A stretch of 64,000 bases of DNA. Origin: Medakamo hakoo. Its lineage: Eukaryota > Chlorophyta > Trebouxiophyceae > Coccomyxaceae. Shown piece after piece: positions 5,053 to 10,671 of the stretch. The stretch spans positions 310,001 to 374,000 of the forward strand of contig CP089459.1 of NCBI GenBank assembly GCA_026636295.1, written 5' to 3'. The translations under genes and the position numbers were made by a program. Position 1 is the first letter of the stretch. Each line of letters begins with the position of its first letter. The notes beneath the pieces were generated by a model that saw only the letters and a list, made by a program, of their open reading frames with translations, was not told the DNA's origin and did no database searches.

Positions 5053-7200
5053 ATGCCGTCGCGTCGTGTGCCCCCAGCGCGCGCGGCGGCGGATGGAGGA
5101 GATCGACGGCATGCCGGCGCGGACGCGGCGACGACCGCCGCCGCCGCCACCACCCTGCTGGCCAGTGACGCCGTCCGCGCCGCGCTCGCGGCCAACCGGG
5201 CAGCCCAAGCCGAGCTGCGCGGCCTCCTGGGCCGGGTCGTGGCCATGCTCAGCGCTAATGCGGGCCTGCAGGCCCGGGTCCTGGCGGAGACCGCGTCGGA
5301 CGGCGGTGGCGGCCGTGCCAGCGGCCGGGGCTCGCCCGCCGGTCCCTCCGCCGCGCCGCCCGCGGCGCCCACCCCACACCGGGGCGGCCCCTTTCGGTTC
5401 GCCCGCGCGCCCGCGGCCCTGGCCCGGTCCAGGTTTTGGTCCCTGGGCGGGGACAACGTGCCGCCGCCCAATGCGGACACGCTGCGCCTGGCGCCCGCCT
5501 ACGCGCTCGCGCCCCTGACCTGGGGTGCGCCGCCCTGGTCCGCCGCCGAAGACGCCGCGCTCGCTGACGCCGCGCTGCGGGCGGTGCGGGCCCGGCGCTT
5601 TGACGCCACAGTTGCGGCCTTGGAAAGGGGCGAGGCCGGCGGCGGGGACGGGGAGGGAGCCCTCGCGCCCGCCGGGCCGGCCGCGGCCTTTGACGCCGCG
5701 GCCGCCGAGGTCGGCGCGCTCTGCCTCACCTCGCCCGGCGTGGAAGCGGACGCCGACGCCCTGGACGAGGAGGCCTGGGACCGCATCGCGGCGGCGTCGC
5801 TGCCCGCGCGCACAGGCCCGGAAGCGGCGGCCCGGTGGCGGGAAGCCGTGCGGCCGGCGGTGAGCGCCGCGCCCGCCTGGACGGCCGCGGAGGACGCGGC
5901 CCTGGCCGCGGCCGCGGCCCGCCGGGGTGGGCGGGACTGGCCGGCCATCGCCGCCGACGTCGCCCGCGCCGCGCCCATTGCAGCAGCTGAGGTGGGCGCG
6001 GCCATGGCTGCGGCGGCGCGTGGGCGTGGGCGTGGCCCGGGCCGCCCGCCGTTGCGGCCGCGCCCGCCGCCGCGCGCCGCGCCGCCCCCCGTCGCGCCGC
6101 CGCCGGCGCCTCCTGCGCCCTCCGTCCCGGGCGGGCGGCCCGTCCGCACGCCGGCCGCCTGCTTTGCCCGCTACTTAGCGACGACGGGCCGGCAGATCGT
6201 GGTGCCCGGAGGCGGGCGCCGGTCGGCCAGCCCGGAGGAGGCGGCTGTTGTGGACCCGCTCCCGCGCCCGGCCCGCCGCCGTGGCTTCACCCCCGCGCAA
6301 GACGCGGCCATCGCGGCGGCCGTCCAACGCCACGGCCTGGGGAACTGGGCCCTCATTGCAGGGGACGTCCCCGGCGGGTGCACGGCGCACCAGGTCATGC
6401 ACCGGTGGCGGAGCGCTGTGGGCCCGGCCGTCGCGGCGGCGGCGGCGGCGGCGGCGGTCGCTGGCGGCAGCGGTCCGCCGCCCCCTCCCCCCGGAAGCGG
6501 CGCCGCCACCGCGGCCGCCGCCGCCCCACCGCCCGTCGTCGCCGTCGGCCAAGTCCTGGGTAAGTGGACGCCGGCAGAAGACGCGGCCCTGCGCGCCGCC
6601 GTCGCGGCCCAGGGCGGCCCCGGCGCCTGGACGCGCACGGCAGCGCTCGTACCGGGCCGCACCGACGTCCAGTGCCGGTCCCGGTGGGTGCACTTGGAGG
6701 CGGTGGACCGGCGTGGGCCCGGGCCGGGAGCGGGGCGTGGGGGTGGCCGGCCCCGCGGGCGCGGGCGTGGCGGCGGTGGGCGGGGGGCGCGCCCGCACGT
6801 CGCCGGCGCGCCCGCCCCGCCCATCGGCCCTGCCGAGGTGGAGGGCTCCAGCCCGGCCTGGTCCGCCGCGGAATTCGCGGCGCTGGCGGCAGCCGTCGAG
6901 GCCGTCTCCGCCGAGTGCGCGGCCCAGGGGCGGCAACGCCTGCGCTGGCCGGACGTGGCGGCCCGGCTGGCCTCGACCAACCCGCGCCGCGCGAGCGCGC
7001 CCGCGCGCTCCCCGGACGAGTGCCGGTTCTGCTGGTACCGCCCCACCTGCCGCCCCGCCCGGGCCGCGCTGGCGGCGCGGGCGACGGCGCTGGCGGCCCG
7101 CGCGGCGGCGGCACTGGAAGGGCCTGCTCCAGCGCGCCGGCCGGCCGAGTCGGCCGCGGATGCGCCGCCCCCACCCGAGAAACGGCCGCGCGGTGGTTGA
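5053..7200 (+). CDS. SNAPC4/MYB4R-like multi-repeat Myb protein
   Basis: This is a single-exon gene of 715 residues. Five tryptophan-anchored Myb/SANT-like repeats can be seen, starting near residues 159, 273, 409, 502 and 599. Each opens with W/F-x-x-A-(E/Q)-(D/F)-x-A. The third and fourth are the best, with GNWALIAGDVPGG and HRW, then GKWTPAEDAAL, PGAWTRTAALVPG and QCRSRW. Between them lie Pro/Ala/Gly-rich linkers. Repeats spaced this way, plus a short conserved-looking block FWSLGGDNVPPPNADTLRL before the first, resemble SNAPC4 (the DNA-binding subunit of the snRNA-activating complex) and plant MYB4R1. If so, it would direct transcription of spliceosomal snRNA genes. The degenerate outer repeats leave other multi-Myb families possible. 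Confidence 0.65.
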   Translation: MPSRRVPPARAAADGGDRRHAGADAATTAAAATTLLASDAVRAALAANRAAQAELRGLLGRVVAMLSANAGLQARVLAETASDGGGGRASGRGSPAGPSAAPPAAPTPHRGGPFRFARAPAALARSRFWSLGGDNVPPPNADTLRLAPAYALAPLTWGAPPWSAAEDAALADAALRAVRARRFDATVAALERGEAGGGDGEGALAPAGPAAAFDAAAAEVGALCLTSPGVEADADALDEEAWDRIAAASLPARTGPEAAARWREAVRPAVSAAPAWTAAEDAALAAAAARRGGRDWPAIAADVARAAPIAAAEVGAAMAAAARGRGRGPGRPPLRPRPPPRAAPPPVAPPPAPPAPSVPGGRPVRTPAACFARYLATTGRQIVVPGGGRRSASPEEAAVVDPLPRPARRRGFTPAQDAAIAAAVQRHGLGNWALIAGDVPGGCTAHQVMHRWRSAVGPAVAAAAAAAAVAGGSGPPPPPPGSGAATAAAAAPPPVVAVGQVLGKWTPAEDAALRAAVAAQGGPGAWTRTAALVPGRTDVQCRSRWVHLEAVDRRGPGPGAGRGGGRPRGRGRGGGGRGARPHVAGAPAPPIGPAEVEGSSPAWSAAEFAALAAAVEAVSAECAAQGRQRLRWPDVAARLASTNPRRASAPARSPDECRFCWYRPTCRPARAALAARATALAARAAAALEGPAPARRPAESAADAPPPPEKRPRGG

Positions 7201-7291
7201 GAAACGAATGAAAAACCCGTCTTCTGTAACAACAAAAAACTCTGCCTGACTGCTCTCTTTCCCCAACTCTCTCTCTTCTCTAACGTCAAAA

Positions 7292-8094
7292 CTACTGAGG
7301 CCGCCCGCTGCCCGCCGCGTACGGCGGGTACGCCGTGGTAGGCGGCGGCGGAGCGTGCAGGGCGGGCGCCGCGTGCAGCGCGGGCGGCGGGCCGGGCGGG
7401 CGTGGGGCGGTGACCACGGCCACGCCCGCCGCCTGAGCTGCCGCCCGCGCTCGTGCCAGGGCGGCGACTTCCGCGTCGTACGCCAGCTTGGCAACCAGCC
7501 AGTCTTCTTCGGGACGGAATGGTGCGGCCGCTCCCTCTGGAGGCGGCAGGCCCAGGACGCCCGCGTCCAGGGCCTCAGCCAGCTCCGTCGCGGCCGCGGC
7601 GACGGCTGCGCAACTGTCCGCGACGGCGCGCGCGGACGCGATGGCCACCTCCCGCTCAGCGGCGCGGCGGCCCAGGAGGAGGCGAGGGGCAGATGTGGAC
7701 GCCTGTTGCTGCTGCAGGGCATCGGCGTCGGCGGTCTCTGCCGGGCGCTGGTCGAGGAGCTGTGGTGTGGGGAGGGGGGGGGGGAGGCGGGTGCGGGTTG
7801 AGAGCCGAGGGGATGCGCGAAAGGAAAAACAAACGAAGGCACACACAACAGAGAGATCCCTGCCTTCCACACACGCACATGATACGGCAGCAGCCTGTCC
7901 ACGGCGTCTGTCGCCGACCGGAAGGGCGTGTCAATGTCTGGCGCTGCCAGGGCCGCCAAGTCGGCCGCGAGCAGGCCGGCCGCGCCGCCGGCCTTGTGGG
8001 GCGGCGACGAAAACAGCGGCGGCGGCGGCACCGGTTGGCCGGCACCAGGGCGCGATCCCGCCGTTGGTGGCGGGCCTGGACCCCGGCTGTCCAT
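7292..8094 (-). CDS. GLTSCR1/BICRA-domain protein (chromatin-remodelling subunit, BRIP-like)
   Basis: Exons are 8094-7879 and 7759-7292 (donor GTGCGT, acceptor CACCACAG, phase 0), giving 227 residues from the ATG at 8094. The diagnostic block TPFRSATDAVDRLLPYH spans the end of exon 1. It continues after splicing into a helical region with LLLGRRAAEREVAIASARAV and a Pro-rich end. That block is the GLTSCR1 domain, found in animal BICRA/BICRAL and plant BRIP1/2, subunits of SWI/SNF-type remodellers. A longer N-terminus is possible: an acceptor TTTCCCAG just upstream of this ATG could join GAAAGCGCC in frame to an exon ending CGAG/GTACGA near 8270. Splicing, stop and domain fit well; the start is the weak point. 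Confidence 0.75.
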
Positions 8095-8687
8095 CTTGCC
8101 GGCGCTTTCCTGGGAAAGGCCGAAAAAAAGGAGAGACACGGGGAAGTGATAAAAAAGAGAGAGAGTTTTCGGCACACTGTGAGACTGGACCTCCCACACC
8201 ACCACCACCACCCCACCCCCCACTCCCCACCCCTCCACGGCCGGTGCTCACGCCCGCGCGTGCATGTCGTACCTCGCACGTCGCCTTCCAGCCGCGCCCC
8301 GCTCGTCTTCCAGGTCGCCCCCGCGCGTCGGCCGCGACCTCGCGCAGGCGCCCCGCTTCGGCGGCCGGGTCGATGGACCCGCCGCCCGGTCGAGGGGGCG
8401 GACCGCGGAATGGGGACGGCTTTGGAGGGGGCTTGCCCGTGGCGACAGGCGGCCGGGGAGACGCGGTCACATCCCGCGGCCGTAGAGGGGGGATGGGGGT
8501 GGGGGTGGGGGGATGGGGTGGGGGATGGAGAGGGAGGGTCACGTCCCCGTTGAAGCAGGGGTGGAGGCCACGCTGTGCGCGCTCCCTCGGGGCGGGGTGC
8601 GCTCACTTCCCTCACCGCTGGTCCCCGCCTCTCCCTTTTTCTCTCTCTCTCGGTGCGGCCGCCGCCACCCGCGCACGTCTGATTGAG
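8095..8687. promoter_or_regulatory. Divergent upstream region with possible unannotated 5' exons
   Basis: These 593 bases lie between the first supported codons of the GLTSCR1-domain gene (minus) and the AP2/endonuclease gene (plus). They hold a G-rich minisatellite-like tract near 8488-8535 and a pyrimidine tract near 8628-8650. Both neighbours may have an extra 5' exon in this stretch, since neither has an unambiguous start. Confidence 0.5.
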
Positions 8688-10671
8688 CCGGAGCTCGATC
8701 GGTCCCCTTATCGTCCGTTACACAAGGTACGTAGAAGGGCGGGGGAGGGCGGCGGCGGCGGGCCCGAGGCGAGACCGGCGCCACCATCTGGATCGACAGC
8801 AAGCCAAAATACCTTGGCCATTTCGAGTCCGAAAAGGAAGCCGCGGAAGCGTACGACAAGGAGGCGCGCGCCCAGCTCAAGGAGGGCGGCCGGGTCGCCA
8901 AGCTCAACTTTCCGAACGATGACGACAACGCTGACCTGTCCGCGCTGGAGAAGATCATCGCTGAAGCCAAGCGGGTCGGCGACGAGGCCGACGCCGCAGC
9001 CAAGATCAACGGCGCCCCGCCGCCCCCCCGCGGCAAGTCGTCCGGGTACGTCGGCGTGCAGAAAGCACCTAAGGGCAAGTGGCGCGCTAAAATCAATGAA
9101 ACCCACATTGGCTACTTCGAGTACGCGTCCTCTGCCGCGCTCGCGCTTGACAGCGCGGTGCGCGCGCTGCGCGGCGCGGCCGCCACGTTCAACTTTCCCC
9201 GCCGGGGCGAGACCAAGGCCGCCGTCACCGAAGCCGAGAAGGCTGCCGCCCGGGCCGTTCGGGCCGCCGCCCGGGCCGCTGCCCTGGCCGCTGCCCTGGC
9301 CGCCGCCCGGGCCGGCGACAATGAAACCCGGTCCGCTGCCGCCGCCGAAGCCGCACACATCTTCGCGCGTTTACCTGGCTACAGGCGAGACATCCCCGAC
9401 CTGGAGGGAAACCACCTGTGCAGCCTCCCCTGGGGCGTCAAACCCCCGCCGGCCCCGACCGCCGTGGTGTCGGAATCCAAACCGCCCTGGCAGCTGCGCG
9501 TCCTCCTGTGGAACGTGCGGTCGGCGCGCACCTTGACGGGCCACATCGATGATGCGTGCGAGTCCTTTCCGGGCGCCGAGCTCTGGCGCCTCTTCAACCG
9601 CATCCATCACCAAGCCTTGGACGCCTTCCTGTTCCAGGAGCACAGGTGGGGGCCTGGCGACGTCGACAAGTTGAAGGCTTTGCTCCAACTGCCTTCCCAC
9701 TGGACCGTCGTCCACGCGTCGGCGAGCCGCACCCGCAACGGGGAACCGCAGGAAGGCGGGTACTCGGGCTCCGGCATCGCCACGGCCCGCGAGCTGTTAG
9801 CCCAGTGGGCCACCCGGGAAGAAATCGAAGACCTGGACGAGTGGGACGACGTTGTGGACGGTGAAGGTGAGGAGGTGTTTTTTTTTCTTTGGAGTGGAGC
9901 GAGAGGGCGAGAGACAGAGAGAGAGAGAGAGAGAGAGCAGCACCGACCACGCGCGCCTTGGCCCGCCCCACGCCCCCCTCTCACACACACCTTTCCTCGC
10001 CCCGCCACCGCCCTCCCTCCCCAGGCCGCTTTGTTGCGGTCCTGACCCGCGACGGCGTCGTCCTGGTGTCTTTCTACGCCCCTCACGTCCAACTCTGGGA
10101 AATTTGGGGTAAGCTGCTGAAAACAAACGAAGCCTTTGCGTGGGAGCTGGGGCGGTGGACTCGCGCCATCAACGTCCTGGTCCGGCGCCTGAGCAAGCTG
10201 AGCGAAGCCACGGGGCACGCGCCCATCATCGTCGTCGGCGACTGGAACCAGGGCGCCCGCATCGACATCGTCGAGCGTAAGTTGGAGGAGGCCCGCCTGT
10301 TCCTGCCCCACCGCCACTCCCCTACGCGGGTTGACATGGGCCTGGACTTTTTCGCCGTGTCGAATAGCTTCAAAGGCTTCGTCGAACGCATGCGCATCGA
10401 CCCGGACGCTGGCGGGAGCGACCACCTCGGGGTTGTGGCGAGCGTGAACGTGCCGCCGGACCTGGTGCGCCGAGCGCGGGCGCGCCGGGCGCGACGGGCG
10501 CGCGCGGACGCGTTGGCGTTGCCGGCGCCGCCGCCGCCGCCGCCCCGGAAGCGGCCGCGACCGCCCGCCGACCAGAACATGCATGAGAGTGGGGAAGAAG
10601 GGGGTGAGAGTGGGGCCTCGGGGCGAGGACGGGCCGGGCGGCGGCGGACTGAAGCAGAGACTGATCATTGA
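8688..10671 (+). CDS. Two-AP2-domain protein fused to an endonuclease/exonuclease/phosphatase domain
   Basis: Proposed exons are 8688-8726, 8774-9866 and 10025-10671, about 592 residues with the 5' end unresolved. The first AP2 domain reads SPYRPLHK across a 47-base intron into TGATIWIDSKPKYLGHF, EAAEAYDKEA and LNFP. The second reads SSGYVGVQKAPKGKWRAKI, GYFEYASSAALALDSA and FNFP. An alanine-rich repeat follows, then an EEP-fold nuclease with LLWNVRS, FQEHRWG, VVGDWNQ, a DMGLDF segment and GGSDHLG, so all core metal-binding and catalytic motifs are present. The tail is basic (RRARARRARRARAD and KRPRPPAD), possibly a nuclear localisation or DNA-binding segment. AP2 domains bind DNA; EEP enzymes cut DNA, RNA or phosphoesters. 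The fusion is not one I recognise. A LINE-type endonuclease ancestor is possible, but no reverse transcriptase is adjacent. Confidence 0.7.
9241..9312 (+). repeat. Imperfect in-frame alanine-coding tandem repeat
   Basis: Short GC-rich units of the type GCCGCCCGGGCC and GCTGCCCTGGCC repeat about six times. They encode alternating AAARA and AALAA steps in the linker between the second AP2 domain and the nuclease domain. Confidence 0.6.

Follow-up and report, generated by a model that had tools for sequence, protein, structure and literature searches.

What directs a nuclease to DNA when it is encoded in one frame with AP2 DNA-binding domains? The question is raised by a gene in a 64,000-nucleotide stretch (the window; C6:310001-374000) of the Medakamo hakoo genome (15.64 Mb, 16 contigs), the organism being described as a trebouxiophyte green alga in its published assembly paper (PMC9871001). 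The original prediction, made from the letters of the window, was of two AP2 domains, an alanine-rich linker and a complete nuclease of the endonuclease/exonuclease/phosphatase (EEP) family. The gene proves to be one of four related loci. The reading favored here, at a probability of roughly 0.4, is that the family consists of nucleases derived from ARP, an apurinic/apyrimidinic (AP) endonuclease, which have lost the lesion pocket and are tethered to DNA by transcription-factor heads; a sequence-guided nuclease, as first suggested, is possible. A repair nuclease is ordinarily led to its target by the lesion itself. If true, this reading would show a route from repair enzyme to site-directed nuclease via transcription-factor DNA-binding domains, in a host whose 15.6 Mb genome is easy to work with.

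Architecture of the gene and its family

The spliced window gene runs from half an AP2 domain through one full AP2 domain, an Ala-rich linker and a two-exon EEP nuclease to a basic tail, all on the plus strand. Translation of the spliced frame and Pfam bear out the predicted AP2-type sequence, linker, WNVR, QEH, GDWN and SDH motifs and basic tail. Exon A (8735-9866, its 5' boundary putative) is an open frame lacking an in-frame ATG. It holds the C-terminal half of the first AP2 domain (8783-8914, by DNA homology to a paralogue), a complete and diverged second AP2 domain (9038-9199, hhalign), the linker (9200-9358) and the first part of the nuclease domain with WNVR and QEH (9488-9866; Pfam Exo_endo_phos at residues 249-488, and the structure model). 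A phase-1 GT..AG intron of 158 bases (9867-10024) lies in the codon following D-G-E. The exon 2 coding frame (10025-10671) begins right after it and comprises the second part of the nuclease with FYAPH, GDWN and SDH (10025-10458; Pfam and copy alignment) and the basic tail up to the stop codon (10459-10671). The predicted model of the window protein displays the four-layer fold of the EEP superfamily.

A genome search with the spliced window protein found the same nuclease at three further loci, named C5, C1 and C4 after the contigs carrying them (locus extracts L037, L039 and L038, respectively; gene models drawn by eye), plus AP2-only relatives. The fusion itself is real, but it is not a lone gene. 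Identity to the window copy in the two nuclease exons is 75 and 82% for C5, 44-54% for C1, and 39 and 59% for C4. C5 and C1 display a GATA finger (37.8 and 39.1 bits), two AP2 domains, the linker and the EEP domain. C4 displays a ubiquitin hydrolase (38.1 bits) and four AP2 domains, two in each of two pieces, followed by a TGA and then the EEP domain; its head and four AP2 domains form one 1367-codon frame (L038:963-5063). The best PDB match of the C4 deubiquitinase head is USP34 (E 0.0018). A close second copy of this head was not found, the next best match being 45% over 54 residues. Different heads on one nuclease make the family a case of recent domain shuffling.

Evidence for splicing comes from C4. 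From position 2 onward, a database protein of 353 aa, P0001 (source tag lgn), matches the C4 nuclease frame with its intron spliced out, residue for residue; it begins at the TTG immediately after the C4 TGA. Since it is identical to the spliced frame and absent from the unspliced one, P0001 probably derives from a transcript. The intron missing from P0001 is homologous to that of the window gene, the splice of which is thus supported indirectly, through this paralogue.

The AP2 assignments are of unequal strength. AP2 and GATA domains are sequence-specific DNA binders in plants. Window 8791-8931 is 88% identical in DNA to the C5 AP2-1 exon (blastn) and lacks the N-terminal half retained there, so that one of the two predicted domains is complete and the first is a half. 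For the window protein Pfam returns no AP2 match even at E 1, and for the second window domain by itself none even at E 10; the proposed Pfam check thus returned the nuclease and not the AP2 domains. The second domain is called AP2 because of its paralogues and a profile-profile comparison, in which the four paralogous AP2-2 copies match five other AP2 domains of the genome with 98.3% probability (hhalign, E 2.1e-14). The AP2 domains of C4 pass Pfam (44.0 and 34.5 bits), and that of C5 scores 25.5 bits, under the cut-off of 33.3.

Ancestry of the nuclease

Matched against the PDB, the family profile finds APE2, plant ARP or ExoIII in 11 of 11 matches up to E 10, the best single match being yeast Apn2 (E 1.5e-5). 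The nuclease intron coincides, in both codon and phase, with an intron of the alga's own ARP gene, which the genome keeps in canonical form. The nuclease is best read as a duplicated ARP/APE1-type AP endonuclease rather than a LINE-like one. Capture of a LINE endonuclease by AP2 domains, as the original prediction had allowed, is very improbable. The EEP fold and the FYAP motif would fit such a capture; the exclusive PDB matches to APE2, ARP and ExoIII, the intron shared with ARP and the lack of RVT_1 matches speak against it, and the candidate was rejected. The whole-genome profile search returned no RVT_1 match, a negative that is not proof of absence because the telomerase reverse transcriptase was missed too. 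No LINE endonuclease is named among the matches listed (two listings, best 50 each), which alone excludes nothing.

Likeness to plant ARP and human APE1 (ExoIII family) extends from the EEP fold and six of the seven catalytic residues to an E-G-R motif ahead of the FYAP/VYVP strand. Identity is about 30% (69 of 231 aligned residues), and the family differs in its added AP2, GATA or deubiquitinase heads. APE2 is an EEP nuclease of the same class. It has a PCNA-box and a zinc-finger tail; the latter is not seen in the family, and the intron evidence points to ARP instead. The C4 EEP tail ends in QRRITEYFKK, of which QRRITEYF fits the consensus of the PCNA-interacting peptide (PCNA-box). This tail is intact in one of the four copies, the homologous DNA in the other three no longer encoding it in frame (by eye). 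A second ExoIII-type gene of the alga, at C6:1032683, had been taken by eye for APE2; it is left without a name because ExoIII is the family favored by the PDB search (E 2.9e-18), whose 45 matches include no APE2.

Catalytic residues and abasic-site pocket

The catalytic residues of APE1 are listed as D70, E96, Y171, D210, N212, D308 and H309, and its pocket residues as N174, N229, A230, F266 and W280 (PMC8033172). Numbering was mapped onto the copies by alignment to the alga's ARP and by reference to the APE1 sequence. Six of the seven catalytic residues, all but D70, are identical in 4/4 copies. The four-copy alignment has 267 gap-free columns, 88 of them invariant, and the nine positions picked as catalytic are invariant throughout (chance 3.4e-5).

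The pocket region, from AGFTI to RLDYF, is largely missing. Of its 57 ARP residues, 36, 36 and 32 face a gap in the window copy, C5 and C4, and C1 has an Asp run in its place. The counterpart of N174 is H, H, H and F in the four copies, the F266 region lies in the gap, and at W280 (the Trp of GWRLDYF) the copies have M, M, L and L. Judged by these three residues, the ARP/APE1 abasic-site pocket is absent from the family. The nuclease is complete, as first described, with regard to motifs and to metal and phosphate residues but not with regard to the pocket. The metal and phosphate chemistry appears to have been kept and the abasic-site pocket segment lost.

With the chemistry kept and the lesion pocket lost, targeting is suggested to depend on the heads. 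An ARP/APE1-type AP endonuclease appears to have been duplicated and to have become a module carried behind interchangeable heads (AP2 arrays, GATA finger, deubiquitinase), the module retaining metal and phosphate chemistry and shedding the segment that forms the pocket. The family proteins would most likely be DNA-tethered nucleases that nick DNA or trim 3' ends, brought to chromatin sites by the AP2 and GATA heads and not by a base lesion. Nicks or shortened 3' ends left there could have a role in transcription, demethylation or recombination, and the deubiquitinase head and PCNA-box-like tail of C4 may hint at replication or chromatin.

The same ancestry and kept chemistry would also suit an enzyme that is still an AP endonuclease, its extra DNA-binding heads taking it to particular chromatin sites, e.g. 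for demethylation. That is improbable: the pocket region is gapped or replaced by an Asp run, the Trp of GWRLDYF is replaced, and the alga keeps a canonical ARP.

Evidence against a working tethered nuclease

Several observations weigh against the tethered-nuclease reading, beginning with the EEP domain itself. At D70, the one catalytic position not conserved, the four copies have R, R, N and N, and confidence in the structure model is modest (pLDDT 61). Domain scores are low: the window protein reaches 25.0 bits against Exo_endo_phos (PF03372), barely over the curated cut-off of 24.5, the EEP domain of C5 scores 18.9 bits, below it, and in C1 neither domain, AP2 or EEP, is called by Pfam, which assigns P0001 to no family. 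Because of this, the AP2 and EEP names in C1 and P0001 rest on homology to the other copies. The EEP core could accordingly be a retired nuclease, now a scaffold or nucleic-acid-binding surface, with the AP2 and GATA heads doing the work. This is a serious if doubtful alternative, to which the loss of the pocket region, the replacement of D70 in all four copies and the fast amino-acid change described below would all belong. A pure scaffold, however, has no need of the six catalytic residues that stay identical in every copy, and an Ala stands at the D70 position in fly Rrp1 and the alga's ARP as well.

Further adverse observations concern gene integrity and selection. The window copy lacks a start codon, the GATA exon and the N-terminal half of AP2-1; C4 has its TGA between AP2 and EEP (L038:5064; C4 320563); and C1 has a stop ahead of its tail. 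Between the window copy and C5, dN/dS is 1.17, and differences at codon positions 1, 2 and 3 number 39, 33 and 27. As controls, 3 of 15 pairs of light-harvesting proteins, those that are close (85-94% amino-acid identity) and of silent divergence similar to window/C5, give dN/dS of 0.25-0.35. Third positions make up 27/99 of the differences in window/C5 and 34/64 in one light-harvesting pair (p 0.0015). The window/C5 pair thus gives no sign of purifying selection on amino acids when its 1.17 is set against 0.25-0.35. The five deeper family pairs (dN/dS 0.95-1.25) say nothing in this regard, because the other 12 light-harvesting pairs, at 38-54% identity, already give 0.78-1.57; the measure is informative for window/C5 only.

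These features could indicate decaying segmental duplicates of a formerly useful gene, drifting in a mosaic genome, the window copy being a 5'-truncated pseudogene. The half AP2, the missing start, the stops in C4 and C1, the dN/dS near 1 of the closest pair and the dispersed flanking duplications agree with decay, as does the fact that a spliced database protein is known for C4 alone among the four copies. Decay is rather unlikely. Conservation of the reading frame speaks against it. Over the linker end and EEP coding sequence, window and C5 differ by no indel in 1037 aligned bases, at about 118 substitutions, versus 19 indels in 539 aligned bases, at about 48 substitutions, in the intron and upstream DNA, where simple repeats inflate the indel rate. 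A laxer gap setting placed short cancelling gaps in the EEP exons also. Within exon A, the stretch of AP2 and linker is rich in gaps (9 in the whole-exon comparison, 3 of them multiples of three), and the kept-frame argument is for this reason limited to 9266-9866 and, in exon 2, to the EEP part. The invariant catalytic residues likewise speak against drift. The window copy has changed no faster than C5: polarised amino-acid changes number 4 versus 7 of 56 differences, or 14 versus 15 under a looser rule.

An intact frame combined with rapid amino-acid change agrees with relaxed constraint and diversifying selection alike. A more ambitious version of the tethered nuclease, rather unlikely as a whole, would be a natural counterpart of engineered zinc-finger nucleases. 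It supposes a head-swapping nickase derived from an AP endonuclease, steered by its AP2, GATA or deubiquitinase modules to selected places in the genome for transcription control, demethylation or the spread of its own cassette from chromosome to chromosome, and changing fast as in a genetic conflict.

Relatives elsewhere and known systems

In the protein database, the one match is P0001 of the C4 paralogue itself; with C1 as query there is none, the length limits of that search leaving out P0001. Absence of the family outside Medakamo hakoo is provisional, because the search scored only candidates sharing 5-residue words and its coverage of green algae is uncertain. Among viral contigs 17 pattern matches were obtained, none a relative. 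No described family with the AP2-then-EEP order was found in the literature or the protein database, in agreement with the original prediction. The nearest parallels lie in two directions. AP2-HNH homing endonucleases join AP2 to an HNH nuclease in phage or intron settings; they likewise combine an AP2 DNA-binding domain and a nuclease in one protein, whereas in the present family the nuclease is an EEP domain of ARP type and the gene is nuclear. AP2/ERF and GATA transcription factors share the AP2 and GATA domains, and the family differs from them in its C-terminal nuclease.

The 5' end of the window copy and its neighbors

An upstream segment common to the C5 paralogue, a probable promoter or 5' region, lies at 8185-8606 on the plus strand (blastn 86%, 445 columns, L037:3500-3942); within it, 8208-8405 is 97-98% identical to C5 upstream DNA. 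It is followed on the same strand at 8602-8697 by a segment like the DNA upstream of the C4 start codon (blastn 74%, L038:401-510). The order is thus C5-like upstream DNA, C4-like upstream DNA, then the middle of the first AP2 domain. In the AP2 frame there is no ATG anywhere in 8601-9866, and a TAG stands before 8735. Twelve one-intron models can be drawn from upstream ATGs, none favored over the others. The window copy is, from its sequence, best described as the 5'-rearranged odd member of the four-locus family, and it may be translated. By eye, its homology runs out in C-rich repeats.

The AP2-EEP protein reads as host-derived, as first proposed. Genes around the window copy look like ordinary host genes. 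They include a Myb-type gene (5053-7200, Pfam 99.3 bits), a GLTSCR1-type gene on the minus strand (about 7290-8240, Pfam 38.6 bits on one exon), a minus-strand DUF383/DUF384 protein with both Pfam scores below cut-off, and ribosomal protein L1 (Pfam 209.5 bits). The 5' end of the GLTSCR1-type gene faces the AP2-EEP upstream segment.

Duplication and mobility

A 3' flank common to C5 and C1 (90%) is found again, in part, on C15 (89%) and at the C4 copy (83%), and copies of C5 upstream pieces occur on C15 and C4 at 99% and 97% identity. The shared flanks would call for no more than segmental duplication in a mosaic genome; an AP2-EEP gene acting as a self-spreading cassette is still conceivable. 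The C5 flanks (L037:2400-4050 and 6800-9901) are themselves a patchwork of recently duplicated pieces, copies of which lie on C15/C4 at 99%, 97% and 89%. A long AP2 array with no EEP match is located at C2:1172500-1182400 (L040), and next to it, on the minus strand, is DNA like the family's upstream segment (C2:1172267-1172530, 84%). Finally, the EEP intron of C1 carries a fragment of SF3B1 (L039, about 6250-6350; 32 residues, PDB match E 3.6e-6).
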